Source: Magnetospirillum gryphiswaldense MSR-1 v2 (lineage in GTDB: Bacteria; Pseudomonadota; Alphaproteobacteria; Rhodospirillales; Magnetospirillaceae). From it: a stretch of DNA of 64,000 bases. Below the pieces are notes generated by a model. The model was not told the DNA's origin. It saw only the letters and a list, made by a program, of their open reading frames with translations, and searched no databases. Shown here piece by piece: positions 9,514 to 29,482 of this stretch; within the stretch, counting starts at the first letter, position 1; each line of letters opens with the position of its first letter. The position numbers and the translations under genes were made by a program. Location: contig NC_023065.1 in assembly GCF_000513295.1 (NCBI RefSeq), forward strand, positions 2,712,501 to 2,776,500. Reading direction: 5' to 3'.

Positions 9514-9515
9514 CC

Positions 9516-10115: not shown

Positions 10116-10136
10116 CCCACACTCCCATCCAACTGA

Positions 10137-10179
10137 CGCGGCCGACCGGGGGAGTCCTCTTCCTGGTCGGCCGCGTTTT
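10137..10179 (+). terminator. Rho-independent terminator ending the prophage late operon
   Basis: An 11-bp perfect stem (CGCGGCCGACC with its complement at 10165-10175) and a 17-nt loop are followed by TTTT. It lies 22 bp after the holin stop. Confidence 0.85.
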
Positions 10180-10435
10180 GCGTTTGTGGCCTGCGATAAG
10201 GCAGGCCAGTGGTGGGCTCAGGTCAGGGTCGCTGCCGTCCCCACCGCCGATCTTGATCCGCACCTCGTACGGCGTCTCCATCGGTCCCCGCGATTCAAGG
10301 GTCCGGGTCCCCTGATCAACTTGCTTTATCGATCCAGCATTCGTGCGTCGCCGTCGACCGCGTCGATGATGCTTCGCATCTCGAACGCCAATTCGGGGGG
10401 GTGACGGAAGCGTCTCGAATAGTCGGTCGCGCTCT
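10180..10435. other. Non-coding gap between prophage end and AraC gene
   Basis: No supported gene is visible. Open frames on both strands show no family pattern. No tRNA or integrase is present, so the right phage attachment site is not identified here. Confidence 0.5.
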
Positions 10436-11512
10436 TCACGCACCAGAGATAAAATGGTGTAAAGCCAGAGTTCTGCGGTATTCCGAAGGCGGAACGCCGA
10501 ATTGCCTGACGAAGGAGGCGGTGAACGAGGAGACATGGGCGTAACCGGCGCGATGGGAGATCGCCTTGATGGGGAGTTCCCCTTCCGCCAACAGGCGCGA
10601 TGCCACCTCCAGGCGCCGCTGCACCACCCATTCCATCACCGTGAGCCCCGTGGAGGCGCGGAAGGCGCGGGCTAGCTGCCTTTGGGATAGGCCGACGGCG
10701 CTGGCCAGGGTCTCCAAGGGCGGCAATCGCCCGAGGTCCGAGTGGAGCAGGTCGCAGACCGCCCGCATCTTGGCATTAGCCTTGTCGGACGGCTGCCGAT
10801 CATGAATGCGCCCGCCTTCCAGGTCGCTCAGCACCACTGCCAACAGGTTGAACAGTTGTCCATGCTGGTGGAGCCGTGACAAATCGCCGACGTAGGGTGA
10901 GGTGCGGATCTGGCCGATGAGTTGACGCATCGCCGCCGACATTTTCGGAGCTGCCACGTAATTCTCGCCACAGCCATCAATGAACTTCTCGATGACCGTA
11001 GGGACCCGCATACCCGCCAATATTGTCCGCAAGCGGTCCGCAGTGAACACCGGCGCGACCAAATCGGCGCATTCGTTCGGGCTCTGCTCGATACTGCACT
11101 GATCGCCGACTCTGCCGTGCAGAAAGAGACCATACCCCTCGGGCGTCTCGCTCAATACGTCTCCACCATCGAGTCCGACCTGCGCCCGCCCGGCCATCGG
11201 CATCCGCAGAATCAGAAAAGGACGCGGTGAAATAACCGTTCCCGTGATCTTGACCTGCCGGTTGAGATGAAGGCCTGCGTGAAAAATCCCATATTCTTCA
11301 TCCACAGGCTGGAAAGAGACCTGATGCCTTCCAAATTCCCTGGGGAGATTCTGTGACGTGGCGATGTCAGCCGAGCCAAAGCCGCTGGGCAACGACCATG
11401 TGGAGGCAAAGGGGATAAAGGGCTCTGCTGCGGGCGCATACGGCAGTGATGATGTTGCGCCATCAGTCGCGCCCGCTTTTAGCGAGCCCCGAGCGGCATT
11501 CATTTCATGCAC
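10436..11512 (-). CDS. AraC-family transcriptional regulator
   Basis: The 358-residue product has an N-terminal sensing region (about 1-235) and a C-terminal double helix-turn-helix. The first HTH is around LETLASAVGLSQRQLARAF and the second around IKAISHRAGYAHVSSFTASF, followed by the family end FGVPPSEYRR. The N-terminal part resembles AraC_binding_2-type proteins only in general layout. It is transcribed away from the second AraC gene at 11837 and the export locus behind it, so it is a likely regulator of that locus. Confidence 0.88.
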   Translation of the reverse strand: MHEMNAARGSLKAGATDGATSSLPYAPAAEPFIPFASTWSLPSGFGSADIATSQNLPREFGRHQVSFQPVDEEYGIFHAGLHLNRQVKITGTVISPRPFLILRMPMAGRAQVGLDGGDVLSETPEGYGLFLHGRVGDQCSIEQSPNECADLVAPVFTADRLRTILAGMRVPTVIEKFIDGCGENYVAAPKMSAAMRQLIGQIRTSPYVGDLSRLHQHGQLFNLLAVVLSDLEGGRIHDRQPSDKANAKMRAVCDLLHSDLGRLPPLETLASAVGLSQRQLARAFRASTGLTVMEWVVQRRLEVASRLLAEGELPIKAISHRAGYAHVSSFTASFVRQFGVPPSEYRRTLALHHFISGA

Positions 11513-11836: not shown

Positions 11837-12568
11837 ATGGACGTTAGCTTTCAGCACCTGAATGTCGGGCGTGGCCTAGATATCCTGCTGGCGAAGTCTG
11901 ATGTCCTGACGGGTTCGCCCCAGGCGGTGATCCACATTCAGCCCGACGATACAGAGAATGCGGTCGATATCGGTGATATCGCCGTTGCGATCCGCCTTTC
12001 CGCCGCGCGCCTCAGGACATTGCTCGGCAATGCTCCCATGGCCGACAGCCTGCTGTCGGGGGGGGCGTCGGCGAGTGATGGGGTTCACCTTCGCATCAAC
12101 AATTCCACCCTGGTTCGCCGTATCGCCCAGGACATCCGACACTCGAGCTATAAGGACACCTGCCTCAAGCTGTTCCTCCAAGGAAAAGTGGTTGAGCTGC
12201 TGGTGGAAAGCCTGTCCCAGCCCGAGGCCGTGGGGGAGCGCTCCAATGCCGTTACAGTTCGTGATCTATTGCTGGTCGACCCGGTCTCCCCCCCTTCCAT
12301 GACGGAACTGTCGCGCCTGCTCGGCGTGTCGCAACGTCGGTTGAGCAACGAATTCAAGGAAGCCTTCGGCATGAGGGTGCCGGAGTGGCTGGCCGACTGG
12401 CGCCTGACCCGTGGCCGCGATCTGGTGATGGAAGGCTCCACTTCCATGGCTGAGATCGCCGCTTCGCTGGGCTACGCCCATCTGTCCACCTTCACTGCCG
12501 CTTTCACCAAACGCTTCGGCGCCCCTCCTACCCGCCTGCGCGCCGGGAGCGCGGAGTCATCGCCATGA
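11837..12568 (+). CDS. AraC-family regulator, short, first gene of the export locus
   Basis: This 243-residue protein has a reduced N-terminal part and a full C-terminal AraC DNA-binding domain: HTH1 around MTELSRLLGVSQRRLSNEF, HTH2 around MAEIAASLGYAHLSTFTAAF, ending FGAPPTRLR. It resembles the divergently encoded 10436-11512 regulator in the DNA-binding half. A GGAGGGGGA ribosome site precedes the ATG. Its stop overlaps the start of the 89-aa tagged protein by 4 bp (ATGA), coupling the regulator to the export genes. Control of the locus by this protein is inferred from position. Confidence 0.85.
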   Translation: MDVSFQHLNVGRGLDILLAKSDVLTGSPQAVIHIQPDDTENAVDIGDIAVAIRLSAARLRTLLGNAPMADSLLSGGASASDGVHLRINNSTLVRRIAQDIRHSSYKDTCLKLFLQGKVVELLVESLSQPEAVGERSNAVTVRDLLLVDPVSPPSMTELSRLLGVSQRRLSNEFKEAFGMRVPEWLADWRLTRGRDLVMEGSTSMAEIAASLGYAHLSTFTAAFTKRFGAPPTRLRAGSAESSP

Positions 12569-12834
12569 GCAATACCATTCGCAAGCACCCAAGGATGAAT
12601 CTGGGTTTGATGGCCCTGGAGTCGCGTTGGAAGACCGCGCGGGACAATGGCGGCCACGTGGTTTCGCATCCAAGTGGGCTGCGGGGCCGTCCGGGAGGGG
12701 GGCAAGAAGCGGGAAAGCCGGTGCCAACTCCCCCGAAGACTGGCCTGCTTCACCGCGACAAGCCGGTGGGAAAACTCGCCTTCTCCAAACAACCCAAGCT
12801 GGCGGCGCGTAACGCCGCCATCCGCTTTTCCTAA
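12565..12834 (+). CDS. 89-aa miniature protein with both end tags of the giant exported proteins
   Basis: The N-terminus contains RKHPRMNLGLMALESRWK, matching RKRRNxxLGLMALEPRWM of the two giant proteins at 15384 and 21221. The C-terminus (GKLAFSKQ.KLAARNAAIRFS) matches their ends. The roughly 1400-1800 residues that separate these tags in the giants are replaced by about 40 Gly/Pro-rich residues. The DNA around the stop (gcgcgtaacgccgccatc through the following ggggata) is nearly identical to that after the first giant gene. It is therefore either a deletion relic of a third giant gene or a functional minimal substrate. The N-tag has lost Pro and the FDGAA part. Confidence 0.75.
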   Translation: MSNTIRKHPRMNLGLMALESRWKTARDNGGHVVSHPSGLRGRPGGGQEAGKPVPTPPKTGLLHRDKPVGKLAFSKQPKLAARNAAIRFS

Positions 12835-12851
12835 GACCAGGGGATATTCAT

Positions 12852-14600
12852 ATGACCTCCACCATGTCTCGCATGGCCCGCCTACTGGCCGCCGTCTCCA
12901 CCGCTGCCCTGCTGTCTGCCTGCGCGGTGACCCCGACGCCGTTCACCCAAGACGAGTTCTCGGCCAAAGCCAAGGCGGACCGCACTGCAATGTTCGAGGG
13001 CCAGGAGGTGATGACCAAGCCACTGACGCTCGCCGACGCGGTGGCCCGGGTGCTGAAATACAACCTGGATAAGCGGGCCAAAATGATGGATGAGGCGCTG
13101 GCTCTGGGGCAGACAAGCCTTGACCGCTTCGACCTGCTGCCCAAGCTGACAGCCAATGCGGGCTATACCGAGCGCTCGGCACCCAACGCCACACGCTCAC
13201 GCGATCTCTACACCCAGACAACCAGCACCTCGAACCCCAGCTATTCGGCGGATCGGTTTTCCATCACCAATGATCTGGGGCTGACCTGGAACATCCTGGA
13301 TTTCGGCGTCAGCTACTTTACCGCCCATCAGAACGCCGACCGGGCTTTGATTGCTCAAGAGAAGCGGCGCAAGACCGTCAATAATCTGGTCCAGGAGGTT
13401 CGCTTCACCTTCTGGCGAGCTGCCGCCGCGCAAACCCTGAAAGCCAAGGTGACCGAGACCATCGCCTCGGCCGAGACGGCGCTGAAGGATTCCGAGCGTG
13501 TTGAGGCGGAGAGGTTGAAGAACCCCACCGAATCCTTGCGCATCCAGAAGACCCTGCTGGAAAGCATCCGTCAGCTTGAAGCCATCGACCAGGAGCTAAC
13601 CACCGCCAAGGCCGAGCTGGCCGCCCTGATCAATGTGGCGCCGGGCAGCGACTTCAAGCTGGACGTACCCGATACTGGCGGCATGACCATCCCCGCTTGG
13701 TCCATGCCCATCGAGCAGATGGAAGAAGCGGCGCTGATCAACAACCCAGATCTACGCGAGCAGGACTACCAGAGCCGCATCGCCATCGACGACACCCATA
13801 AGGAAATCCTGAAGCTGCTGCCGGGCGTGACTCTCAGCTTCTCGCGCCAGTACGATTCCAACTCGTTCCTGATGGATAACCGCTGGAACGACGTGGGCAC
13901 CAAGGTTACCTGGAATTTGATCAACCTGCTATCGGCGCCCGACCGCCTTGCGCATACCGACAGCGCCGAAAAGGTAGCCGATGCCAAGCGCATCGCGCTC
14001 AGAATGGCGGTGCTGGCCCAGGTGCATGTGATCTCGCATCAGTTTGCCAGCGCGGCCAAGCAGTTCGAGCGCGCCGACAAGCTGTGGGGGATTGAGAAGC
14101 GCCTAGCCGATGCGTCCGGCAACCAGCAGCGTGGCGGCACGGCCAACGATATCGAGCGTATCAGCTCCGAGACCTCGGCCATCGCCGCCGAGCTTCGCCG
14201 CTTCCAGACCTATGCCCAGATGCAGTCGGCCTATGGCAAGCTGCAATCGACCATCGGCGCCGATCCGGTGCCTGACCGGGTAGCCTCCCATTCTCTGGAC
14301 GGCTTGTCCGGCGCCATCGTGCTGGCCATGCCGCCAGTGGTGAAGGCCGAACCGGTGCCGCAAGTTACTCCTGCTGTCATCGAGTCGGTGCCCCCCGATA
14401 GCCCAGCTCCCAAGCCGGAGCATCAGAGCACAATGACCTGGCTAGGCACGTTCATCTCCAACGGCCTCGCCAAGCCGGCCGAGGCGGCTCTGGTCGAGCC
14501 GGTGGCCGCACCCGAGCCCGAGCGTAAGGACCCTCTGGGTGACGGACTGGCTTGGTTGGGTGGCAAGATCAGCCGTATCGCGGATCGGATCGGGGAATGA
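12852..14600 (+). CDS. TolC-family outer-membrane lipoprotein (export channel)
   Basis: The 582-residue product has a lipoprotein signal with lipobox LLSAC (Cys24), then two long alpha-helical repeats with intervening beta segments, the OEP/TolC pattern (first repeat around LADAVARVLKYNLDKRAKMMDEALALG, second around EEAALINNPDLREQDYQSRI). After about residue 490 there is an extra Pro/Ala/Glu-rich tail of about 90 residues that ordinary TolC lacks. It is probably the trimeric outer-membrane exit duct for the tagged proteins. It starts 17 bp after the mini protein and overlaps the next gene by 4 bp. Confidence 0.85.
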   Translation: MTSTMSRMARLLAAVSTAALLSACAVTPTPFTQDEFSAKAKADRTAMFEGQEVMTKPLTLADAVARVLKYNLDKRAKMMDEALALGQTSLDRFDLLPKLTANAGYTERSAPNATRSRDLYTQTTSTSNPSYSADRFSITNDLGLTWNILDFGVSYFTAHQNADRALIAQEKRRKTVNNLVQEVRFTFWRAAAAQTLKAKVTETIASAETALKDSERVEAERLKNPTESLRIQKTLLESIRQLEAIDQELTTAKAELAALINVAPGSDFKLDVPDTGGMTIPAWSMPIEQMEEAALINNPDLREQDYQSRIAIDDTHKEILKLLPGVTLSFSRQYDSNSFLMDNRWNDVGTKVTWNLINLLSAPDRLAHTDSAEKVADAKRIALRMAVLAQVHVISHQFASAAKQFERADKLWGIEKRLADASGNQQRGGTANDIERISSETSAIAAELRRFQTYAQMQSAYGKLQSTIGADPVPDRVASHSLDGLSGAIVLAMPPVVKAEPVPQVTPAVIESVPPDSPAPKPEHQSTMTWLGTFISNGLAKPAEAALVEPVAAPEPERKDPLGDGLAWLGGKISRIADRIGE

Positions 14601-15358
14601 CACGTATTCGTCCAATCTCGGGACAGTGCGGGTTTGTCGCCCGCAGGAGATGGGCGGTCCCAGCTCTGTGCCTGCTGTCCTTCGGGGCGCAGGCGCAGGA
14701 GGCGGTGATTCCGGTGCAGTTGGTGGCGGTCAACTACACCAGCCTATCGGCAGAATTACCCGCCAAGATCGACCGCATCACCGTCAAGGAGGGCGAGCGC
14801 TTCAAGGAGGGCCAGCAACTGGTCGCCTTTGATTGCGTCATCCAGCGTGCCTTGGTGGACGAGGCCAGCGCGGTGCTGGCGGCAGCCGAGAAGTCCAAGG
14901 CGGTGCATAAGCGGCTGCTGGAACTGAATTCAACCGGCACGTTGGAGGCTGAGAAGTCGGGCTGGGACGCAGCTGTGGCTCAGGCCAAGCTCAACTCGGC
15001 CCGTGCCGTGGCCTCCAAATGCGCCATCCATGCGCCATTCACAGGCAGAGTGGTGGAGCAAAAGGCTCGCGCCTTCCAATACGTCCAGGTGGGCCAAGCC
15101 ATTCTGGACGTATTGGACGATTCCATCCTGAACGCCGAATTCATCGTGCCCTCGGCGGCGGTGACGACGCTGAAGCCCGGCACCGCCCTTCAGATCGCGG
15201 TTGACGAGACCAGGAAGACCTATCCGGCCAAGATCGCCCGCATCGGCGCCAAGGTCGATGCGGTCAGTCACTCGGTCAAAGTCACCGCTGAGATCAGGGG
15301 TGATTTCCCCGAACTGATGGCCGGGATGACCGGACGCGCCCAGATGACGGCACCATGA
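14597..15358 (+). CDS. Periplasmic adaptor (short HlyD/MFP-like)
   Basis: The 253-residue adaptor has a signal peptide (from MTRIRPISGQ, hydrophobic WAVPALCLLSFGAQA ending at about residue 36), a split lipoyl domain (IDRITVKEGERFKEGQQLVAFD and CAIHAPFTGRVVEQKARAFQYVQVGQ) flanking a short coiled hairpin, then a beta-barrel domain. The C-terminal membrane-proximal domain is short. The ATG at 14597 was chosen because it overlaps the tolC-like stop (ATGA) and gives a proper signal peptide. It would bridge inner-membrane components to the channel. Its 3' end is duplicated in the scar at 21064-21178. Confidence 0.85.
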   Translation: MTRIRPISGQCGFVARRRWAVPALCLLSFGAQAQEAVIPVQLVAVNYTSLSAELPAKIDRITVKEGERFKEGQQLVAFDCVIQRALVDEASAVLAAAEKSKAVHKRLLELNSTGTLEAEKSGWDAAVAQAKLNSARAVASKCAIHAPFTGRVVEQKARAFQYVQVGQAILDVLDDSILNAEFIVPSAAVTTLKPGTALQIAVDETRKTYPAKIARIGAKVDAVSHSVKVTAEIRGDFPELMAGMTGRAQMTAP

Positions 15359-15383
15359 GCGCCGATAACGTTGGAGAGCTATG

Positions 15384-18300
15384 ATGGGTAACATCAACCG
15401 CAAGCGCCGCAACTCCTCCCTGGGCCTGATGGCCCTGGAGCCGCGCTGGATGTTCGATGGCGCAGCTGCCTTCGACGCTGCCCATGCCGCGCCCGACGCG
15501 GCAGCCAAGGCGCTGATCCCTGATGCGCCCGCCCCAGTGCAGGTGCGCGCCGCCGATCCCTCCAAAGATGGCGGCAAAAAGGAGGTGGTGTTCGTCGATA
15601 CCTCCGTAGCCGGATACCAGGCGCTGGAAGCAGCGGTGAAGGCCGGTATTGAGATCGAGGAGATCGACGGGGCCAAAAGCGGCCTGGCCCAGATTGCCAA
15701 ATGGGCCGAAACCCATACGGGCTATGACAGCATCTCCATCCTGTCCCACGGTGCCGAGGCGACGCTGCAGATCGGCACCGACACCCTGCGTAGTGCCAGC
15801 TTGTCCGACGCCGTCACACAGGCGGAACTGGCCGAGATCGGCCATTCTCTGAACGTCGGGGGCGATCTGTTGCTCTATGGCTGCAACGTGGCCAAGGGGG
15901 CGGACGGCCAGCAGTTCATCGAGAATCTGGCCGTCGCCACTGGGGCCGACGTGGCGGCCTCTGCCGACACCACCGGATCGGCCGCCACCGGCGGCAACTG
16001 GATTCTAGAATACAGTTCCCATGATATTACAGCTTCGATGGTCGATGGCGAAAGCTGGGGCGGAGATCTGGGGTGGACCGCCCTCGGCAGCACAGGGTTC
16101 TCGGCGGGCGGCACCAACTACGAGTCTCTCGCCATCGCATCCGATGGCACGCCTTACGTCGCTTATACAGATTATGGAAACAGCCAAAAGCTGACGGTCA
16201 TGAAGTATTCCAGCGGTGCCTGGACGGCAGTCGGCGCGGCCGGAATTTCGAGCGGCGCGGCCTACTACCAGTCCCTCGCGATCGCGTCCGACGGCACGCC
16301 GTATGTGGCATTTCAGGACGCTGCGAATGCCAACAAGCTGACGGTGATGAAGTATACGGTGGCCGATGGGTGGAGCACCGTCGGAACGGTCGGAATCTCG
16401 GCGGGTAATGCTCAGAGGGAATCCCTCGCGATAGCCACCGACGGTACACTTTATGTTTCCTATCGAGACGCTGCTACCACTCCTGTCAACAAGCTGACGG
16501 TGAAGAAGTATACGGTGGCCGATGGGTGGAGCACCGTCGGAACGGCAGGTTTTTCGCCCGGTGAGGCCTCTTTCCAATCCCTCGCCATCACTTCCGATGG
16601 CACACCTTACATCGCGTTTACCGATTTTGGAAACAACCAAAAGCTGTCGGTCATGAAGTATGCCAGCGGTTCCTGGAGTCTCGTAGGAACGGCAGGATTT
16701 TCAGGATATCAAGCCTATTATATGACACTTCGCTTCTCCTCCGACAACACACCTTATGTCGGCTTTCAGGACGGTATGGGTTCAGCCAATAAAGAGACGG
16801 TGATGAAGTATGACGGCACCGCCTGGGTGCTGGTTGGCGCTCGGGGCTTTTCGTCTGGTAGCGTCGGCAACGGTGGCCAATCCCTTGCCATCGCAAGTGA
16901 TGACACACTTTACGTCGCCTATTGCGATAGCGATGTTAGCAGCAAGGTGACGGTGAAGCAGTACGACAGTGGCTCTTCGACTTGGACGACGGTCGGCACG
17001 GAGGGAATATCGGCAGGCCAAGCCTTAGCAGTTTCTCTTGCCATCGCCCCCAGCGGCACCTCGAATGCCGGGAAGCCTTATGTCGCCTACTACGACGGGG
17101 CCAATAGTGGTAAGGCAACGGTGATGTGGATGGCGCCTCCCGGCCCTGCGGCACCCACCGCGCCAACCTTGGACAGCAGCACCGACAGCGGCACCACCGG
17201 CGACGGCAAGACTAACTTTACCACTCCGGTCATCAAGGGTACCGGCGTCACCGCCGCGGCCACCATCACCCTGTACAAGGATGGCGTGGCCTGGGGGAGC
17301 ACGGTCACTGCCGACGGTTCGGGCAATTGGACCTTTACCGCGCCATCCGCCCTGGCCGACAACACCTATGCTGTCACCGCCACCCAGACCACCGGCGGGC
17401 TAACCTCCTCGGCTTCGTCGGCGCTGTCGCTGGTGATCGACGCCACCGCGCCTGTAATCTCTTCGGTAGCGTTGAATGCCAGCGCCTACAAGCTGGGCGA
17501 TACTGTTACGGTTACGTTGAACTCGGCCTATGACGCCCATGGCGCCTACACCTTGGCGGCCAGCACGTTGGATGGGGCCAGCCTGGGAAGCTGGAGCTAC
17601 ACCACCGGCTCGGGATCGGGCACGGCCAGCTTCACCGTGGTTGGCGGAACCACCGAGGTGATCAACGGGAATGTGGCGGTGAATATCGTGCTGACGGATG
17701 CAGTGGGCAATTCCAGCACCGCCTATACCACCGCCATCGCCAGCAAGACCATCGACACCCATGCCCCCACCGATATCGCGGTTGCTGGGTCAGATACCAC
17801 AACCCACGCTTATTCCGGTCTGACGGCGGGAACGACCGTGGGAACCCTGAGTGCCACCGACGCCAGCCCGGGAGAGACCTTCACCTATAGCCTCTCCGGC
17901 GCCGACGCTGCCAAGTTCCAGGTGGTGGGCGGCGTGCTCAAGGTGGCCGTTGGCCAGACCTTGGTAACCAACACTGTTTACAACGTCACCATCCAAGCAC
18001 AGGATTTGGGTGGAAACACTTTTACCAAGGCGTTTACCATCACGGGCGGCCCTGCGGCCCCCGCCGTGCCGACCTTGGACAGCAGCACCGACAGCGGCAC
18101 CACCGGCGACGGCAAGTCCAACTTCACCAGCCCGGTCATCAACGGCACCGGCGCTACCGCCGGGGCCACCATCACCTTGTACAAGGATGGCGTGGCCTGG
18201 GGGAGCACGGTCACTGCCGATGGTTCGGGCAATTGGACCTTCACCGCGCCTTCCGCCCTGGCCGACAACACCTATGCTGTCACCGCCACCCAGACCACCA

Positions 18301-21002: not shown

Positions 21003-21178
21003 GACCAGGGGATAATCACCATGACCGCCACCATGGCTCGCATGGCCCGTCTACGGCCCGTGTCGGCGCCAAGGTCGATGCCGTCAGTTATTCGGTCAAG
21101 GTGGCGGCCAAGGTCAGGGATGACTATCCCGAACTAATCGCCGGGATGACCGGACGGGTCCAGATGCCCGCGCCATGA
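21003..21178 (+). pseudogene. Scar: tolC-like start joined to adaptor end
   Basis: The first part (21003-21054) matches the sequence after the mini protein through the first 11 codons of the tolC-like gene (12835-12885; MTATMARMARL compared with MTSTMSRMARL). From 21064 to 21178 it matches base-for-base spacing with the last 115 bp of the adaptor gene (15244-15358), including the stop codon. About 2.4 kb is missing between them. This is a deletion relic of a second tolC-adaptor pair, proving tandem duplication of the giant-tolC-adaptor unit. The joined frame is not a functional gene. Confidence 0.85.
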
Positions 21179-21220
21179 TTGATATTGTGCCATGAGCGCC
21201 TTAAACTATGGAGTGCAATA

Positions 21221-24200
21221 ATGGGGCACGTCAACCGCAAGCGCCGCAACACCCCCCTCGGCCTGATGGCGCTGGAACCGCGCTGGATGTTCGACGGCGC
21301 GGCGTTCGTCGATGCCGCCCACGCCGCACCGGACGCGGCGGCCAAGGGGCTGATCCCCGATGCGCCTGCTTCCGTTCAAGTGCGCGCCGCCGATCCCTCC
21401 AAGGACGGCGGCAAGAAGGAAGTGGTGTTCATCGACACATCGGTGGCCGATTACAAGACCCTGGAAGCGGCGGTGAAGCCCGGCATCGAGATCGAGGAGG
21501 TCGATGGAACCCAAAGCGGCCTCGCCCAGATCGCCAAATGGGCGGAGAGTCATACGGGCTATGACAGTATCTCGATCCTGTCGCACGGAGCCGAGGCGTC
21601 GGTAAGAATCGGTACGGATACTCTGACCGACGCCAAATTATCGGACGCGACGGTTCAGGCCGAACTGGCCGAGATCGGCCATTCCCTAAACGACGGCGCT
21701 GACTTGCTGCTCTACGGCTGTGACGTAGCGAAGGGCGATGATGGCCAGCAATTCATCACTGACCTAGCCGCCGCCATCGGCGCCGACGTGGCGGCATCCG
21801 GCAATGTCACCGGTATGGATGGCGACTGGACTCTGGAAAAGGCGACTGGATCCGTTGCGGCTGGGCAAATGGATGCCGTCATTCTGGCGACCTTCGCACA
21901 CGACCTAGCCTTTCCCCTCAGCATCACAAATATGCCGACGTCGGGCTCCTGCACCTTCTTTGCGGTGACGGTGGATTCGGCGGGATGCGTCTACGCCACG
22001 GGCCAGTTCACCGGCGTCATCAATTTCAACTCCGGCGCCGGGACGGCGACCTTGGATCAGGCCGTGGGCAGCGCGATCGTCGAGAAACTGAACGCCGACG
22101 GCACCTTGGCCTGGGTGAAACAATTCGGTACGAGCAATTCCATCGGGAATGCCATCTCGGTGGATTCCTCCGGAAACGTCTTTGTCGCTGGCACGTCCGG
22201 CGGCACTTCCAGCTTCGGTGGCGTCACCCTGACCAATGCGGGGGGTAACGATGCCTTCGCCATGAAGCTGAATTCGGACGGCACCACCGCCTGGGCCGTG
22301 GACCTGGGCGGGACCGGCGCCGACGTGGGAACGGGCATCGCCGTGGATCCGGTCGGTAAGGTCACCGTCACCGGAAGTTTTAGCGGCACGGCCGGTTTCG
22401 GCGGAACCAATCTGATATCGGCCGGTGGTACGGATATCTTTGTGACCCAGTTGAACGCCGACGGCACCACCGCCTGGGCCGAAAGCATCGGCGGCAGTTC
22501 GAACGACGCGGCAACGGCCCTGGCCTTGAACAGCACCGGCGCCAATGTTTTCGTCACTGGTTCGTTCAGTGGCGCCAATGTGGATTTCGATCCTGGTGCA
22601 GGAACCTATAATATCAGCACCAACGGCAACACCGATATCTTCGTTCTCAAGCTGGCCGCCGACGGCAGTTTCGTCTGGGCCGACCGGATGGGCGGCTCTA
22701 ACGGCGAAACGGGCTATGGGATTGCCGTCGATTCCAACGGCGGCGTCTATACCACCGGCGCTTTCAATGGCACCACGGCGGTTGATTTCAATCCCGGCGC
22801 AGGAACCTTCAACCTCAGCGGCGGCAGTAATACGAGCTTCGTTCAGAAGCTGAACTCGGACGGTACCTTGGCCTGGGCCAATGCTTTAGGCGGATCGGCG
22901 GCCTTTGGCAAGGCGATCGCCGTGGATGGTTCGGGGAAGGTCCATGTGGCGGGATATTTCCAGAATTCAGGTGATTTCGACCCCGGTGCCGGCGTCAACA
23001 CCCTGACCAGCGCCGGCAGTGCCGACATATTCGTCGAGACGTTCAACGCCGACGGCACCTTTGGCTGGGTGAATCAAACTGGCGGTATCTATGCCGGCGA
23101 TTACGGCTATGGAATCGCGGTGGATGCGGCGGGGAAGATTTACGTGTCCGGCGTCTTTCAGGGTGCCATCGACCTCAACCCCGGGGCGGGTGTCAGCACT
23201 GGTTATAGCACCAACCTCAGCAACGGCTTCGTTCAAAAGCTTAACGCGGATGGCAGCTTCGTCTGGGCCTATGCGCCAAAGTCCGGTGGCACCGCCGACG
23301 CCAGCTCGGTCAGCATCGATCCCTCCAACAACATCTTTGTCGGGGGCAACTTTACGGGGCTGGTGGATTTCGATCTCACCAATCCCGGCACAGACATCTT
23401 CAGTTCCTATGGTGGCTACAGCGTCTATCTGGAGAAGCTGAACTCCGATGCTACGGTTGCCTGGACCAAGCTGCTGGGCGCCGGGGCGAGCTCAGTCGCT
23501 CTATCAGGCATTATCACCGATTCGGCGGGCAATTTCTATGCCATGGGATCATTCACCGGGACCGGCGATTTCGATCCCGGTGTCGGAACGATCAACCTGA
23601 CAGGGAACAATAATGCCTATGTCGCCAAGCTGGATCCCAACGGCAACGCGATCTGGGCCAAGACCTACGGCGCCTACTCCGCCATCGACGTCGCCGTTGA
23701 TGCCTCCAGCAACGTCTTCATCAGCGGCCAGTACATCGGGACGAAGGATTTAGATCCCGGCGCCGGCACCCAGAACCTGACCAGCACCGGATCGGGATCC
23801 TATGTCTTGAAGCTGAACCCGGATGGCAGTTTCGCCTGGGTCACTGGCACAAAGACAACCAACAGCAGCAGCCCGACCAAGTTGGCGTTAGGACCGGGGG
23901 GGACCCTTTACAGCTCGGGTTTTCTTCAGGGAACGGTGAACTTCAATTATTCAGGAACCTACAATCTGACTAGCGCCGGCAGTGTGGACGGCTATGTCTG
24001 GAAGCTGAATTCCGACGGCACCACCGCCTGGGCGGAAGTGATCGGAGGGACCGGCGGCGACTATGCCAAGACCCTGGCGGTGGATGGGGCTGGCAACGCC
24101 TATGTGGGAGGCCAGTACGCGGCGACTGCGACGTTCGGACCCAGCGGCGGCACCGTCACCAAGACCAGCGCCGGTGGTACCGACGCGTTCCTGTTCAAAC

Positions 24201-25492
24201 TGACATCAACCGGCAGTGTTGTTTGGGTTAATTCCATGGGCGGGACGGGCACTGACATACTCGGCTACATGTCCCTGGACGCCTCGGGAAATCCCATCGT
24301 CGCCGGAAGTTTCGCCGCCACCGCCACCTTCGGCACAGTCACCAAGACCGCCGTGGGCACCACCGACTCGTTTCTGGCCGGACTCAGCGCCTCCGATGGG
24401 TCGGTGACCTGGCTTAACCAAATCGGAGGGGCGGGAGCCACGGTTTCGATCAGTAACGAGGCGTTCGGTGCGGCCGGCAAGATCGTCCTGGTCGGCAGTT
24501 ACAAAGGCACTATCGATTTCGATCCCGGACCTGGGACGGCGGCTCTGACCGACGCTCCCAGCATGGGCTATGTCGTCCTGTTGAGCGCCACGGACGGCAG
24601 CGTCGCCACTACCACCGGAGCCCCGGTGACCGCCGTAGCCACCAGTCCGTCCACCACCACCACCCCTCCACCGCCGCCGCCGCCGCCACCGCCGAAGGCC
24701 GCGCCACCACCTCCGCCTCCTCCTCCACTTGCCCCGGCGGAGCCGCCACCACCACCACCGGCTCCGCCGGTCATTGCCCCCTTGCCACCGATTACGCCCA
24801 GCGCCCCGCCGCCCGGTACCGATGCTCCCAAGGGACCTGCTGTCGTTATCGGCGGGCCGGGGGGAGCCGGGGTCGGCGCCGGAACTGGGGGGGGCTTAAC
24901 CACCAGCGGCTCCGGCACCATTCAAGCCCCGGCGGTGCTCACCTTCGCCGCATCTGGCCAGTTGACCTCTGGCGCCGCTGACGGCTCTTTCCGGGTGCCG
25001 GTGATCGCGTCGGGCCAACGGAGCGGCGGAGACGACGCCCTTGTGGCCGTTCGACCGATAGCGCAGGTTCAGGAAACAGCGGCGGGAAACGTCAAATTCG
25101 CCTTGCCGGCGGACACTTTCGCCCACACCCGTCCTGACGCGGTGGTCAATCTGAAGGCGGCCCAGATCGACGGTCAGCCATTGCCCCCCTGGCTGGCCTT
25201 CAATCCCAAGACCGGAGCCTTCGAGGGAACGCCGCCAGCCGGTCAAGACGGCGTAGTGGTGGTCCGCGTGGTGGCCCGTGACCAGGATGGCCGCGAGGCA
25301 ATCGCCACGGTTCGCATCGTCCTGGGTAAGGGAGAGGCGGGTGCACAACCCCCCGTTCCGGCGGAGGGACAGCGCAGCGGCTCCATCCGTGACGGTAAGC
25401 CGCTGAAGCTGGCCGAGGTCCGTCTGGGCAAGGTCGCCTTTACGCAGCAATTGAAAATGGCCGCCCGCAACGCCGCCATTCGCTTTGGATAG
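21221..25492 (+). CDS. Giant DUF4347/LEPR-tag protein 2 (1423 aa)
   Basis: It shares with protein 1 the N-terminal tag (RKRRNTPLGLMALEPRWM, FDGAA), the DUF4347 domain with His122 (ISILSHGA) and Cys167 (LLLYGCDVA), the Pro-rich linker, the cadherin-like domain (QPLPPWLAFNPKTGAFEGTP) and the end AFTQQLKMAARNAAIRFG. The middle (about 235-1140) is unrelated to protein 1: some 17-20 SBBP-like beta-propeller repeats such as IAVDSSGNVFVAG...LNSDGTTAWA, several with DFDPGAGT inserts. The start at 21221 has GGAG seven bases upstream and matches protein 1; the open frame upstream is scar DNA. It is likely a surface or secreted protein using the same export route. Confidence 0.88.
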   Translation: MGHVNRKRRNTPLGLMALEPRWMFDGAAFVDAAHAAPDAAAKGLIPDAPASVQVRAADPSKDGGKKEVVFIDTSVADYKTLEAAVKPGIEIEEVDGTQSGLAQIAKWAESHTGYDSISILSHGAEASVRIGTDTLTDAKLSDATVQAELAEIGHSLNDGADLLLYGCDVAKGDDGQQFITDLAAAIGADVAASGNVTGMDGDWTLEKATGSVAAGQMDAVILATFAHDLAFPLSITNMPTSGSCTFFAVTVDSAGCVYATGQFTGVINFNSGAGTATLDQAVGSAIVEKLNADGTLAWVKQFGTSNSIGNAISVDSSGNVFVAGTSGGTSSFGGVTLTNAGGNDAFAMKLNSDGTTAWAVDLGGTGADVGTGIAVDPVGKVTVTGSFSGTAGFGGTNLISAGGTDIFVTQLNADGTTAWAESIGGSSNDAATALALNSTGANVFVTGSFSGANVDFDPGAGTYNISTNGNTDIFVLKLAADGSFVWADRMGGSNGETGYGIAVDSNGGVYTTGAFNGTTAVDFNPGAGTFNLSGGSNTSFVQKLNSDGTLAWANALGGSAAFGKAIAVDGSGKVHVAGYFQNSGDFDPGAGVNTLTSAGSADIFVETFNADGTFGWVNQTGGIYAGDYGYGIAVDAAGKIYVSGVFQGAIDLNPGAGVSTGYSTNLSNGFVQKLNADGSFVWAYAPKSGGTADASSVSIDPSNNIFVGGNFTGLVDFDLTNPGTDIFSSYGGYSVYLEKLNSDATVAWTKLLGAGASSVALSGIITDSAGNFYAMGSFTGTGDFDPGVGTINLTGNNNAYVAKLDPNGNAIWAKTYGAYSAIDVAVDASSNVFISGQYIGTKDLDPGAGTQNLTSTGSGSYVLKLNPDGSFAWVTGTKTTNSSSPTKLALGPGGTLYSSGFLQGTVNFNYSGTYNLTSAGSVDGYVWKLNSDGTTAWAEVIGGTGGDYAKTLAVDGAGNAYVGGQYAATATFGPSGGTVTKTSAGGTDAFLFKLTSTGSVVWVNSMGGTGTDILGYMSLDASGNPIVAGSFAATATFGTVTKTAVGTTDSFLAGLSASDGSVTWLNQIGGAGATVSISNEAFGAAGKIVLVGSYKGTIDFDPGPGTAALTDAPSMGYVVLLSATDGSVATTTGAPVTAVATSPSTTTTPPPPPPPPPPKAAPPPPPPPPLAPAEPPPPPPAPPVIAPLPPITPSAPPPGTDAPKGPAVVIGGPGGAGVGAGTGGGLTTSGSGTIQAPAVLTFAASGQLTSGAADGSFRVPVIASGQRSGGDDALVAVRPIAQVQETAAGNVKFALPADTFAHTRPDAVVNLKAAQIDGQPLPPWLAFNPKTGAFEGTPPAGQDGVVVVRVVARDQDGREAIATVRIVLGKGEAGAQPPVPAEGQRSGSIRDGKPLKLAEVRLGKVAFTQQLKMAARNAAIRFG

Positions 25493-25501
25493 GAAGCCAT
25501 C

Positions 25502-25717
25502 GTGCTGAGAAGGGACAAATCCCCCGTGGCGACCATTGGCAGCCGGTTCGAGAAGACGGGCACGAAGGGATCGTCGTGGATGATTGAAGCGTTTCTTAGT
25601 CCAGCAGGACTTCCCAGGCATGTCTGCCTCGTTGAGACGACGACGAGACGGCTCATGACGGTCGCCGTGTCGGTTCTGGCCGATTCCAGCCTTTTCACAC
25701 CGCTGGACAAAGCATGA
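25502..25717 (+). CDS. Small hypothetical protein between giant 2 and the MFP gene
   Basis: A 71-residue frame begins at GTG with AGGAAG six bases upstream and ends overlapping the next gene by ATGA. No domain is recognised, and no signal peptide or membrane segment is visible. The spacing favours a real coupled gene, but amino-acid composition gives no support, and it could be only an untranslated spacer. Confidence 0.35.
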   Translation: MLRRDKSPVATIGSRFEKTGTKGSSWMIEAFLSPAGLPRHVCLVETTTRRLMTVAVSVLADSSLFTPLDKA

Positions 25718-27024
25718 GTGATAACCCGCTGCTGGCGCTGCTCGGTTTGGAGGAGCACGCCCGCAAGTCCGCCAATTCCACCGATTTGGGCTTTGTCATG
25801 GTCAATGACAGCCGGGCCTTGGCATTCTATCGCCAAGCGGCGCTGTTCATTGATGGCGAGGGGTTGAAAGCAGTATCCGGTGTCGCCGGGATCGAGTCCG
25901 GGGCACCGTTCACCTTGTGGCTGGAACGAGTGTTCAAACGGCTGGCATCCGACGAGGTTCGCCAAGCCTGTCCCGCCGACTTGGACGGGGCCGATGGGTC
26001 GGAATGGTCGGAGTGGCTGCCGTCTTGCGCCTTGATGCTGCCCTTGAGGGACCGCGATAGCAAGCGGCTCGGCACTCTGTTGCTGGCCCGTGACGAGACG
26101 TGGGGCGACCAGGACGTGGCACTGCTGACCCGTGCATCGGATTTCTACGGCCATGCCTGGACAGTGCTGCACCGACCCTCCCCTGTGACCGAATGGAAGC
26201 AGAAGATCCAGTCCATCCCCCGCTATCGCCTGAAACTGGCGGCGGGAATCGTGCTGGCCTTGCTGTTTCCGGTGCGCCTGTCGGTATTGGCCCCGGCCGA
26301 GGTGGTGGCCCATGATCCGGCGGTGATCCGCTCGCCCATGGAGGGGGTGATTGAAAAGGTGCATGTGCGGCCTAATCAGAAGGTGGCTGAGGGCGACATC
26401 TTGTTCGAGCTGGACCGCACCACGCTGACCGGCAAGCTGGAGGTGGCGAAGAAGGCGCTCTCCACCGCCCAAGCTGAACTGGATCAGGCCTCCCAGCAGG
26501 CGTTTTTCGATTCCAAGGCCAAGGGTATGTTGACGGTGATCCGCGCCCGCATTGAGGAGCGGGGAGCCGAGGCGGCGCAGCTTGATGACCTGATGGCTCG
26601 ATCCCAGGTCAAGGCTCCGCGTGCCGGCGTCGCGGTGCTGGATGACCCCGCCGAGTGGCAGGGACGGCCGGTGGCAGTGGGCGAGAAGGTGCTGGCGGTG
26701 GCGTCTCCCAATGACGTGGAGGTGGAAGCCTGGTTGGCCCCGGCCGATGTCATCTCATTGGAGAAGGGCGGCCCGGTCAGCCTGTTCCTCAATTCCGATC
26801 CGCTATCGCCGGTGTCGGCCAAGCTTCTTTACGTCACCTACGAAGCGATCGCCCAGCCCGACGGCACCTTGGGCCATCGCGTCCGCGCCGAACTGCCCAA
26901 GGGCGAGGCCGGCCCCCGGCTGGGGCTGAAAGGAACCGCCCGGCTCGATGGTCACCGGGTGGCGTTGATTTACTGGCTGGCGCGACGCCCGCTGGCAGTC
27001 GTGCGCAACTTCGTGGGCCTGTAG
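25714..27024 (+). CDS. Inner-membrane fusion protein (HlyD family) with GAF-like N-terminus
   Basis: Of 436 residues, about 1-165 are cytosolic and GAF-like (LPLRDRDSKRLGTLLLARDETW). A membrane helix spans about 178-195 (LAAGIVLALLFPV). Then comes a periplasmic MFP part with lipoyl halves (AVIRSPMEGVIEKVHVRPNQKVAEGDILFELD and SQVKAPRAGVAVL) around a short coiled coil, and a barrel domain. It ends 2 bp before the M50 gene. A cytosolic sensory-like domain on an MFP is unusual for type I systems and suggests this pair replaces the usual ABC-MFP module. Confidence 0.85.
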   Translation: MSDNPLLALLGLEEHARKSANSTDLGFVMVNDSRALAFYRQAALFIDGEGLKAVSGVAGIESGAPFTLWLERVFKRLASDEVRQACPADLDGADGSEWSEWLPSCALMLPLRDRDSKRLGTLLLARDETWGDQDVALLTRASDFYGHAWTVLHRPSPVTEWKQKIQSIPRYRLKLAAGIVLALLFPVRLSVLAPAEVVAHDPAVIRSPMEGVIEKVHVRPNQKVAEGDILFELDRTTLTGKLEVAKKALSTAQAELDQASQQAFFDSKAKGMLTVIRARIEERGAEAAQLDDLMARSQVKAPRAGVAVLDDPAEWQGRPVAVGEKVLAVASPNDVEVEAWLAPADVISLEKGGPVSLFLNSDPLSPVSAKLLYVTYEAIAQPDGTLGHRVRAELPKGEAGPRLGLKGTARLDGHRVALIYWLARRPLAVVRNFVGL

Positions 27025-27026
27025 CC

Positions 27027-29132
27027 ATGGATGCCGCCGCCATGCTCCTGCCGAGTTTGCGCGACGAGCTGTCGCTGCATCCCGGCCCGGCCTCCCTCGA
27101 CGGTTCACCGACCTGGACCATCCGCGATCCGGTGAGGAACCGCTATTTCCGCATAGGCTGGGCGGCCTTCGAGGCGTTGAGCCGTTGGGGCGGCACCGCA
27201 GGTGAAGTGGCCGAGGCGGTACGGGCCGAGACCACCATCGACATGAGCGATGAGGAGGTGATGGACGTCGCCAAGTTCGTCCGCGGCAACCAACTGACCC
27301 AAGCCAACAGCCACGCCGACACCCTGCGCTTGAGTGAGCAGGCGGCGGCGGAAAAGCATTCGCTGTTCAACTGGCTGCTGCACCATTACCTGTTCTTCCG
27401 CATTCCCCTGGTACGGCCGGATCGCTTCCTCGGTGGCCTACTGCCGCTGGTGTCCTGGCTTGGCAGTGTCTGGTTCCGTTGGGCCACCCTGGGTGCACTG
27501 GCGCTGGGTCTGATCCTGGTGGCTCGCCAGTGGGACGTCTTCAGCACCACCCTGGTCGATACGCTTTCGGTCAGCGGCATGGTCAGCTACGGCATTGCCC
27601 TATCTCTAGTGAAGGTGATCCATGAACTGGCCCATGGCCTGTCCGCCAAGCGGTTCGGCTGTCGCGTGCCGACCATGGGGCTCGCCTTCTTGGTGATGTG
27701 GCCGGTGCTCTATACCGATGTCAACGAGACCTGGACCTTGGCGTCTCGGCGGCAACGCCTGCTTGTCGGCTCTGCTGGAATTCTGGCCGAACTGTCGGTG
27801 GCGGCCTGGGCCACGCTACTCTGGGCCTTCCTGCCCGAGGGGGCATTGCGCCAGGGCGTCTTCGTGCTGGCCGCCTTCACCTGGGTATCTTCATTGGTGA
27901 TCAATCTCAGCCCCTTCATGCGCTTCGACGGCTACTTTCTGGCCATGGATGCGCTGGAGTTGCCCAACCTGCACCCTCGGGCCTTCGCCATGGCTCGCTG
28001 GTGGCTGCGGGAGGCTTTGTTCGATCTGGGCAAACCGGCACCGGAAGCCATGGACAAGTGGCGCACTCACGCCATGGTCGCTTTCGCCTTCGCCGTCTGG
28101 ATCTACCGGCTGGCCCTGTTTCTCGGCATCGCTGTCCTGGTCTACCACTTCTTCATCAAGGCGGTGGGCGCGCTATTATTTGCTGTTGAGATTGGCTGGT
28201 TTGTGTTCTTGCCCATCTGGAATGAGGTTAAGCAATGGGCTAAGCGCCGGGGTGACATCCTCAAAGGCACCAGGTGGAGGCGTCCGCTGATTGGCCTCGG
28301 CCTTGCCCTGCTGGTGGCGATCATCCCCTGGCGCACCCGAATAGAGGCCCCAGCCAGTATTGCTGCCGAGATTGTGGCGCCATTGTTTCTGCCCGCTCCG
28401 GCCCGGTCGGAAGCCGTGCTGGTCGAGCGTGGTCAGCATGTTACTACCGGCATGCCGCTTCTTACCTTTATCGCCCCCGACATCGACGCAAGACGTGCCA
28501 TCACCTCCGCTAGGCTGGCAGGCAAGGCCGCCGAGTTGGAGGCAGTCAAGCTCGACCCCTTCGGCCGCGAACGCCTATCGGCCCTGACCGAGGAACTGTC
28601 GCGCCTCCGCTCCGAGAAGGCGGCGCTGGACGCCGAAGCCGAACGCCTGACCGTCACCGCACCTCATGCCGGTCTGTTCCTCGATCCGTTGCCGGACCTG
28701 AAACCCGGCGCCTGGCTGTCGCCGAAGCAGCAATTGGGCCTGATCCGGGCCGATGGCGTCCCCATTGCGACCGCCTATCTGGCCGAGGACGATCTGGAGC
28801 GAATCAAGGAAGGCGACGAGGCTCGCTTCATTCCCCACAGCCTCGACCATGCCGGTATGGCGGGCAAGGTGCTATCCATCGACCGCAATCCGGTCAAGGT
28901 GCTGGCCGATCCGGCCCTGGCCTCGCTCCATGGCGGGGACATCCCAGTTCGGGCCGCAGGCCAAGCTCTAGTGCCCCAGGGCGGCTTCTTCCGCGTCACC
29001 ATCCGTCTCGACGGCCCGGCGCCCGATATAAAGCTGATTGGACATGCTATCATCAGTGGGCAGGGCCAAAGCCTGATTGGACGCGCGGCGCGGTCGGCGC
29101 TGGTGGTGCTGGTCCGCGAATGGGGAGCTTGA
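27027..29132 (+). CDS. M50 site-2-type metalloprotease with PqqD-like and HlyD-like parts
   Basis: This 701-residue membrane protein starts with a PqqD-like winged helix (about 10-95; DPVRNRYFRIGWAAFEALSRW). A polytopic region (about 120-440) carries the zinc motif HELAH (residues 199-203) in a helix and the second motif NLSPFMRFDG (from residue 293), both intact. The C-terminal 230 residues form an MFP-like periplasmic arm with lipoyl and barrel segments (ASIAAEIVAPLFLPAPARSE; TAPHAGLFLD). PqqD-M50-MFP proteins occur near peptide-export and modification loci. Here it is probably the inner-membrane engine or processing protease for the tagged giants. Confidence 0.85.
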   Translation: MDAAAMLLPSLRDELSLHPGPASLDGSPTWTIRDPVRNRYFRIGWAAFEALSRWGGTAGEVAEAVRAETTIDMSDEEVMDVAKFVRGNQLTQANSHADTLRLSEQAAAEKHSLFNWLLHHYLFFRIPLVRPDRFLGGLLPLVSWLGSVWFRWATLGALALGLILVARQWDVFSTTLVDTLSVSGMVSYGIALSLVKVIHELAHGLSAKRFGCRVPTMGLAFLVMWPVLYTDVNETWTLASRRQRLLVGSAGILAELSVAAWATLLWAFLPEGALRQGVFVLAAFTWVSSLVINLSPFMRFDGYFLAMDALELPNLHPRAFAMARWWLREALFDLGKPAPEAMDKWRTHAMVAFAFAVWIYRLALFLGIAVLVYHFFIKAVGALLFAVEIGWFVFLPIWNEVKQWAKRRGDILKGTRWRRPLIGLGLALLVAIIPWRTRIEAPASIAAEIVAPLFLPAPARSEAVLVERGQHVTTGMPLLTFIAPDIDARRAITSARLAGKAAELEAVKLDPFGRERLSALTEELSRLRSEKAALDAEAERLTVTAPHAGLFLDPLPDLKPGAWLSPKQQLGLIRADGVPIATAYLAEDDLERIKEGDEARFIPHSLDHAGMAGKVLSIDRNPVKVLADPALASLHGGDIPVRAAGQALVPQGGFFRVTIRLDGPAPDIKLIGHAIISGQGQSLIGRAARSALVVLVREWGA

Positions 29133-29167
29133 TCTGCTATGATAAACCACACCATCTTGGGAGGTGC

Positions 29168-29482
29168 ATGATGCGCATTGCATTCCGTCTGGCCGCGCTG
29201 GCGGCATTTTTGGCCCTGGCACCTGCGGCCATGGCGCAAGGGAATGGCCCCATCGACAATGCCTACGAATCCTCCAAGGCTGCCGAACTGGAATCGGTGA
29301 AGCTGCAACTGGCGACCCAGCCTGGTTCCACTGCAGTGCAGGAACTCAACGAGGCTGAAATCACCCTGCGGCGTTTAAAGGAAACAAAAGCGACTGACCA
29401 ACGCCGCAAGATCGCAGCCGAGTTGGAAATGGCCATCACCCGCCTGAAGATCGCCGCCGGTGCCGGATCGATGCAACGGTGA
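29168..29482 (+). CDS. Small exported helical protein at the end of the export locus
   Basis: The 104-residue product has a clear signal peptide (MMRIAFRLAALAAFLALAPA, cleavage probably after AMAQ) and a mature part that is a single charged coiled coil of about 75 residues. GGGAGG lies just upstream; the second ATG (29171) has the better spacing. It starts 36 bp after the M50 gene, so it probably belongs to the operon. No family is recognised; a periplasmic chaperone or channel accessory is conceivable. Confidence 0.7.
   Translation: MMRIAFRLAALAAFLALAPAAMAQGNGPIDNAYESSKAAELESVKLQLATQPGSTAVQELNEAEITLRRLKETKATDQRRKIAAELEMAITRLKIAAGAGSMQR

Follow-up and report, generated by a model that had tools for sequence, protein, structure and literature searches.

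How would giant proteins leave the cell from a locus that encodes a TolC-like channel and several adaptors, and no ATP-binding cassette (ABC) ATPase? The question is raised by a 64,000-nucleotide stretch (the window; NC_023065.1, positions 2,712,501 to 2,776,500) of the 4.37 Mb single-contig genome of Magnetospirillum gryphiswaldense MSR-1. It contains a cassette of genes for giant proteins with conserved ends, a TolC-like lipoprotein, a short membrane fusion protein (sMFP), a membrane fusion protein (MFP) joined to a GAF domain (GAF-MFP), and an MFP joined to an M50 zinc protease (M50-MFP). Probably, the locus encodes a machine dedicated to exporting and processing giant surface proteins; the most likely reading is an export or release system that is coupled to a protease, independent of ABC proteins, and unlike any we found described. 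A dedicated ABC-less constellation of these genes is well supported by the co-occurrence of an N-terminal tag of the giants with the M50-MFP, the proximity of the two, contiguous runs of the genes on plasmids, and six carrier genomes in which the searches used showed no type I exporter. The preliminary description of the window had proposed a peptidase-coupled secretion route; the dedicated constellation was upheld, and the PqqD part that it assigned to the M50-MFP was not supported.

The cassette in genomes and on plasmids

Members of the alpha-, beta-, and gammaproteobacteria carry the cassette of giant, TolC, sMFP, GAF-MFP, and M50-MFP genes. Across species genomes, at least 563 relatives of the M50-MFP were found. 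By this protein alone, the closest named relatives among the matches listed were from Magnetospirillum and other Rhodospirillaceae. Gene order was counted in 80 loci taken from these relatives, some of which are cut by contig ends. The GAF-MFP gene adjoins the M50-MFP gene in 69 of the 71 testable loci, and one of the two misses (L015) has a GAF-MFP gene just beyond the distance rule. In the 43 testable loci with at least 8 kb upstream, a giant-like open reading frame (ORF) was found in 40, a TolC gene in 31, an sMFP gene in 30, and a recognisable tag in 20; a long giant gene can push the TolC gene and the tag beyond the fetched stretch. An ABC ORF, defined by Walker A and the ABC signature, was present anywhere in the locus in 12 of the 80 loci and inside the block in none, which bears out the earlier remark that the window locus has no ABC ATPase. 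Grouping of the recurring neighbours placed ABC ATPases at scattered positions in 13 loci. The recurring groups comprised giant fragments or antisense frames, PAS/GGDEF-type proteins (20/80 loci), response regulators, and a small protein of 104 residues; no motor gene (ExbBD-like, RND, or MFS) was recognised among these families by eye from the start of one example per group.

Complete units were also found on plasmids. The M50-MFP matched 52 of 72,556 plasmid records, 51 of them over at least 80%, and the annotated records mostly name these relatives only 'HlyD family' or 'site-2 protease family'. On a Kosakonia plasmid, the genes for the giant, TolC, sMFP, GAF-MFP, and M50-MFP lie in a row, and the giant (2,347 residues) carries the tag LEPRMLFDGA together with SHG and YGC motifs. 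The same gene order was observed in Escherichia coli pABWA45_1 and Citrobacter p6_A, where the giants have about 4,460 residues (tag LESRQLFDGA in the E. coli plasmid) and insertion sequences lie beside the units. No ABC ORF was detected in the plasmid stretches read from Kosakonia, Citrobacter, and E. coli. Among 5,426 E. coli genomes, 24 gave a match of 99% or more to the M50-MFP gene, and in 22 it covered at least 80% of the gene; 21 of the matching places are plasmid-borne and 4 chromosomal. Matches this close, mostly on plasmids, suggest recent spread. The occurrence of complete units on plasmids, those of E. coli among them, makes their function directly testable. Directly 3' of the M50-MFP gene, the Kosakonia plasmid has three genes with a tail fiber annotation (L151:18128-20235).

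Conserved ends of the giant proteins

The N-terminal tag of the giants has the consensus LExRx(M/L/I/V)FDGA. In 53 distinct tagged N-termini, the tag is preceded by a median of 23 residues with a net charge of +4. The best 12-residue hydropathy of these N-termini had a median of 1.41 and a maximum of 2.03, and that of three signal-peptide proteins in the window was 1.96 to 2.27, so that a few giants overlap with the latter; the earlier statement that the giants have no standard signal peptide agrees with this, no clear one being present. A DUF4347 domain follows in both window giants with 158.1 and 155 bits (PF14252 gathering score, 24.6), and both DUF4347 motifs (SHG and GC) were present in 29 of 57 tagged N-termini. 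In six loci (L057, L061, L067, L073, L079, and L140), an apparently different common domain (FNGG...LN) replaces DUF4347 after LEQRxxFDGA.

The co-occurrence of tag and protease was determined in 299 Pseudomonadota genomes, with scores taken for the top three M50-MFP candidates of each genome and a best E-value below 1e-100 defining a carrier. There were 60 carriers, among them one with the M50-MFP in broken pieces (G237) and one with it cut at a contig end (G004); a further 11 genomes had only a distant form of the protein (below about 250 bits). The strict tag was found in 23 genomes, all of which were carriers (Fisher p = 1.7e-18), and the relaxed tag in 44, with 39 inside the carriers and five (G095, G046, G050, G114, and G116) outside (p = 4.4e-28). 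When M, L, I, or V was demanded before FDGA, a filter chosen after the matches had been seen, 38 of 39 genomes were carriers (p = 2.6e-31), and the sole outsider was G116 with LEWRRLFDGA, possibly a chance match. These p values ignore shared ancestry, and a reversed-pattern control matched in five genomes. Tagged proteins in genomes lacking an M50-MFP, which the preliminary description had named as grounds for rejecting the link, are thus not common.

The tag and the protease gene are also close together. Thirty tags share a contig with a scored M50-MFP, and every one of them, including 8/8 in single-contig genomes, lay within 25 kb of one. This count covers 56 of the 64 tag sites outside the M. 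gryphiswaldense genome, 26 of which are on contigs without a scored M50-MFP and are uninformative on distance. The sites left out were five of non-hydrophobic form, the G116 site outside the carriers, one that starts with F (G034:C67), and, by oversight, G093:C42:217; the last is 6.7 kb from an M50-MFP, and the left-out match in G016 is more than 1 Mb from its M50-MFP. In the M. gryphiswaldense genome itself, counted apart, the strict tag has nine sites, six of which are within 12 kb of an intact M50-MFP.

The C-terminal tail of the giants has the consensus (F/L)xxQL. A profile trained on 19 tails from Rhodospirillaceae-type genomes and Magnetococcales was applied to 34 held-out giants, which include four from Azospirillum and one from Xanthobacteraceae beside those of beta- and gammaproteobacteria. 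Of these, 33 gave a match, and in 32 the best match lay in the last 80 residues (the failures being L050 and L086); single scores were low, from -5 to 17.5 bits. Of 53 giants, 34 have the motif [FL][STA][EQDN][QEK][LIFVM][RKH] within their last 80 residues, compared with 0/2,650 internal windows and 6/2,650 shuffled tails. Six of 59 tails had been dropped by hand as frameshifted or cut (34/59 if kept), and the motif expression, unlike the profile test, was written after the tails had been seen.

Protease, known systems, and rival explanations

The M50-MFP has the features of an intact protease. The catalytic residues H, E, H, N, P, D, and G of HExxH and NxxPxxxxDG were invariant in 58 of 58 aligned members, and in the window protein they lie in HELAH (residues 199-203) and NLSPFMRFDG (293-302). 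PF02163 was above its cut-off in the window protein and was listed at E <=0.1 for all 58. Among curated protease families, the highest scores went to two whose names denote peptide maturation, daptide_HExxH (58/58, best 5.1e-52) and YydH/LiaK (58/58). On the window protein, both models scored below their cut-offs (NF041824, residues 36-389, 158.1 bits against 300; NF058609, 43.5 bits against 225). A PqqD domain at the N-terminus, named in the preliminary description, found no support, nor did recognition by such a domain: PqqD matched 1 of 34 members at E 0.07, and searching the sequence of this region for PqqD or any other known fold produced no convincing match. The predicted strands and helices are compatible with a PqqD-type fold. 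The adaptor domains of the GAF-MFP and M50-MFP are full and resemble MacA; matches to the adaptor domain took up the structure-search lists, so the M50 core and the N-terminal domain were barely probed by structure.

The cassette was compared with known systems. Like type I secretion, including that of LapA-type giant adhesins, it combines an HlyD-type adaptor and a TolC channel with giant repetitive presumed cargo that has no clear Sec signal and a conserved C-terminal tail, but it has no ABC exporter in any of the 80 blocks, its MFPs are fused to GAF and M50 domains, and its cargo bears the N-terminal tag LExRxxFDGA. The tripartite pumps MacAB-TolC, MexAB-OprM, and EmrAB-TolC share the TolC-family channel, and their MacA, MexA, and EmrA are matched by the MFP domains, whereas the cassette has neither an ABC protein in its blocks nor an RND or MFS protein recognisable by eye among its recurring neighbours. 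Judged on sequence, the cassette therefore lacks what defines either class, the ABC exporter of the former and the energised transporter of the latter, though it is alike in outline. The daptide and YydH/LiaK epipeptide proteases, whose models match all 58 M50-MFPs, differ from them in the sub-cut-off scores, the fused MFP, and the partners, which are giants rather than short peptides. Site-2 proteases such as MJ0392 and RseP have the same HExxH and NxxPxxxxDG motifs (short, weak matches to 3b4r, E 0.03, and 7w6x, E 0.02) but neither the added MFP domain nor the context of an export cassette. DUF4347/LEPR surface proteins (PF14252) resemble the window giants, whose DUF4347 is well above the cut-off, and differ in the form of the tag and in that SHG and GC occur together in only about half of the tagged N-termini. 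For a protease that forms part of an export machine, the closest counterpart, in the parts of PMC8277102 concerned with C39 proteases of ABC exporters, is the peptidase-containing ABC exporter, in which a C39 cysteine protease cuts the N-terminal leader of the cargo; the cassette differs in having an M50 zinc protease on an adaptor and no ATPase, and no M50-MFP is described in those parts (PMC8277102). No description of the five-gene constellation was found in the literature searched, with most subscription journals outside that search.

It is quite possible, and is proposed here tentatively, that the cassette represents a new class of TolC-dependent secretion, in which an adaptor-fused intramembrane protease and a GAF-adaptor replace the ABC ATPase and move double-tagged giants with energy that does not come from ATP hydrolysis in the complex. 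In the export and processing machine that we consider probable, the membrane-anchored adaptors GAF-MFP and M50-MFP would form a continuous conduit with the sMFP and TolC. The (F/L)xxQL tail would serve as the entry signal and probably leave first, and the positively charged N-terminus with LExRxxFDGA would be held on the cytosolic side beside the M50 domain. We infer cleavage of the tag by the M50 domain and delivery of the giants to TolC by the complex; cleavage near the tag would end translocation and release or mature the giant, akin to leader peptidases in peptide export, and the GAF domain may sense a ligand or gate the complex. The simplest options for the drive would be the proton-motive force, acting through the membrane core of the M50 domain, or repeats that fold outside and pull the chain. 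To our knowledge, every known TolC-dependent export route has an energised inner-membrane transporter. A unit that lacks one, has an intact protease, and brings giant cargo of its own would add a new means of protein export from Gram-negative cells, and it would suggest a function for DUF4347/LEPR giants and the hundreds of M50-MFP relatives.

Several findings weigh against the reading as an export machine. We know of no precedent for an ATPase-free drive of proteins of 1,400 to 4,500 residues. M50 enzymes usually cut membrane helices, and the N-terminal tag region is weakly hydrophobic. The hydrophobic form of the tag was missing from 22 of the 60 carriers. Among the nine strict tags of M. 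gryphiswaldense, one (4115577) has only a broken M50-MFP near it, about 10 kb away, and two tagged giants (304957 and 618274) have none nearby in the 20 kb read and the genome list; both have TolC and MFP genes 3' of the giant. The carriers are also not free of ABC exporters: LssB was matched at E 1e-100 in 54 of 60 (34 above its cut-off) and the PrtD cut-off was exceeded in 19, from which it follows that most carriers have type I exporters. The M. gryphiswaldense genome contains LssB-like ABC proteins below the cut-off and, elsewhere, an NHLM exporter pair (7 of its 13 HlyB-search matches were classified). The ABC candidates scored per genome numbered 15 in the LssB search, 19 in the PrtD search, and up to 55 in the HlyB search (all candidates for G064, G088, and G182).

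The strongest rival explanation builds on these exporters. A type I ABC exporter in most carriers, or an MsbA-like one in the others, would act in trans as the inner-membrane translocase of the giants, leaving only conduit and processing to the M50-MFP, GAF-MFP, sMFP, and TolC, in keeping with the role that MFP and TolC usually have as the outer part of a type I system. We consider this unlikely, since no block of the 80 loci and no plasmid stretch read has an ABC ORF, the cassette being carried on plasmids without an ABC gene, and since six of the 60 carriers (G004, G023, G064, G088, G182, and G244) had no LssB or PrtD match at 1e-100 and none above the HlyB cut-off. Three of the six have the tag. 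In G182, the tagged giant, TolC, sMFP, GAF-MFP, and M50-MFP genes are in a row; the order in G244 is TolC, sMFP, tagged giant, GAF-MFP, and M50-MFP, and in G023 sMFP, GAF-MFP, M50-MFP, tagged giant, and TolC. In G064, a giant cut by the stretch edge is followed by TolC, an OmpA-like ORF, sMFP, GAF-MFP, and M50-MFP genes, and no tag pattern matched in that genome. In favour of ABC help in trans, MsbA-type exporters were present in each of G182, G023, G244, and G064. In G023, the TolC gene of the cassette is followed immediately, on the other strand, by a MacB-like ABC ATPase ORF and a further MFP, which counts against the reading as an export machine. HlyB-search matches were classified with NCBIfam for 4/4 in G182, 4/5 in G023, 4/5 in G244, 2/2 in G064, and none in G004 and G088. 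Those of G182 and G023 were best as MsbA- or PglK-like and those of G244 and G064, where a family was given, as MsbA-like, with several best scores below the curated cut-offs; three ABC proteins (L144, L145, and L147) had no family at the 1e-105 limit.

In a second alternative, the M50-MFP and GAF-MFP are a release switch rather than a translocase: the giants would be exported otherwise and held by their N-termini until M50 cleavage sets them free in response to a signal perceived by the GAF domain. LapG acts on LapA, which offers a parallel, and the conserved N-terminal tag, the intact protease motifs, the GAF domain, and the adhesin-like appearance of the repeat-rich giants would all fit. 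We regard it as quite unlikely, because no other translocase was recognised among the recurring neighbours, the giants have no clear signal peptide, and full MacA-like adaptor domains on both proteins exceed what a switch needs. Export of a small molecule or of a peptide derived from the tag, with the giants as mere neighbours or structural surface partners, is highly improbable despite the resemblance of the M50-MFP to proteases of ribosomally synthesised peptide (RiPP) pathways and of the adaptors to drug-efflux MFPs, given the near-constant giant-like ORF of the testable loci, the end tags widely common to giants, the giants within plasmid cassettes, and the absence of any recognised biosynthetic enzyme among the recurring neighbours of the 80 loci.

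Features of the window and further copies in the genome

The cassette occupies 12.5-29.5 kb of the window on the + strand, in the order remnant ORF, TolC-family lipoprotein, sMFP, giant 1, giant 2, GAF-MFP, M50-MFP, and 104-residue protein (Table 1). The lipidated TolC-like channel, short adaptor, GAF-MFP, and M50-MFP with both motifs intact, all on one strand, are present as first described. Of the three proteins then said to share both tags, giants 1 and 2 stand; the third is the remnant ORF, whose DNA matches giant 1 at both ends (12601-12631 with 15420-15450, 87%; 12731-12891 with 20897-21060, 79%) and whose tag is LESRW without FDGA. The sMFP scored 110.3 bits with TIGR01730 (cut-off, 94.9).

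Table 1. Positions of the cassette genes and their conserved parts in the window
Feature	Position	Strand	Evidence or remark
Remnant ORF, 89 residues, both tags with almost nothing between	12565..12834	+	Internally deleted giant; DNA matches to giant 1
TolC-family outer-membrane lipoprotein (predicted exit channel)	12852..14600	+	Pfam OEP 2.3e-25; lipobox LLSAC
sMFP, short periplasmic adaptor, 253 residues, signal peptide; start codon inferred	14597..15358	+	TIGR01730 RND_mfp
Giant 1, 1873 residues: N-terminal tag, DUF4347, Ig-like and other repeats, C-terminal tail; presumed cargo	15381..21002	+	DUF4347 2.2e-46, Big_13, He_PIG; tags
Giant 1 N-terminal tag LEPRWMFDGA	15435..15464	+	Tag search
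Giant 1 DUF4347 domain, SHG and YGC motifs	15585..16040	+	Residues 69-220
Giant 1 C-terminal tail GKVAFTQQLKMAARNAAIRFS	20937..20999	+	Tail comparison
Giant 2, 1423 residues: N-terminal tag, DUF4347, SBBP beta-propeller repeats, C-terminal tail; presumed cargo; start inferred at ATG of MGHVNRKRRN	21221..25492	+	DUF4347 1.9e-45, SBBP 5.8e-19; tags
Giant 2 N-terminal tag LEPRWMFDGA	21272..21301	+	Tag search
Giant 2 C-terminal tail	25427..25489	+	Tail comparison
GAF-MFP: predicted cytosolic GAF domain, one transmembrane helix, periplasmic HlyD/MacA-type adaptor	25714..27024	+	
M50-MFP: N-terminal domain, intramembrane zinc protease core, periplasmic adaptor domain	27027..29132	+	
Small protein, 104 residues, signal-peptide-like start; start codon inferred	29168..29482	+	Also 3' of M50-MFP in some relatives

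Two AraC-type regulators lie directly upstream, one at 10436-11512 (-), named by eye, and one at 11837-12568 (+), which overlaps the remnant ORF by a few bases. The cassette is flanked by a GGDEF/EAL-type protein (5791-8652) and a GGDEF-hemerythrin-like protein (30856-32349), both named by eye.

Four more intact M50-MFP genes were found in the M. gryphiswaldense genome, each in a block with genes for a tagged giant, TolC, sMFP, and GAF-MFP. One broken M50-MFP stands beside a TolC gene and a tagged, very long giant gene and is fused to the start of a short MFP (L005, G000:C1:4095001-4115000, 9505-10227). On the M. gryphiswaldense plasmid pMSR-1, the M50-MFP is partnered by a short repeat protein (492 residues), which carries the tail and lacks the tag. 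The giant frames look interrupted in three loci (L001, L002, and L004). The two tagged giants without an M50-MFP nearby, 304957 (L117) and 618274 (L118), differ at their N-termini and are identical in their C-terminal 36 residues, and their TolC genes score equally; the giant of L004 has this tail too, a pattern suggestive of segment exchange between cassettes. L001 (G000:C1:2010001-2030000) and L002 (G000:C1:2535001-2555000) are near-identical cassettes with the interruption apparently in the same region of the giant, and both adjoin UmuD/DinB-like and recombinase-like ORFs, named by eye, with similar surroundings on pMSR-1.

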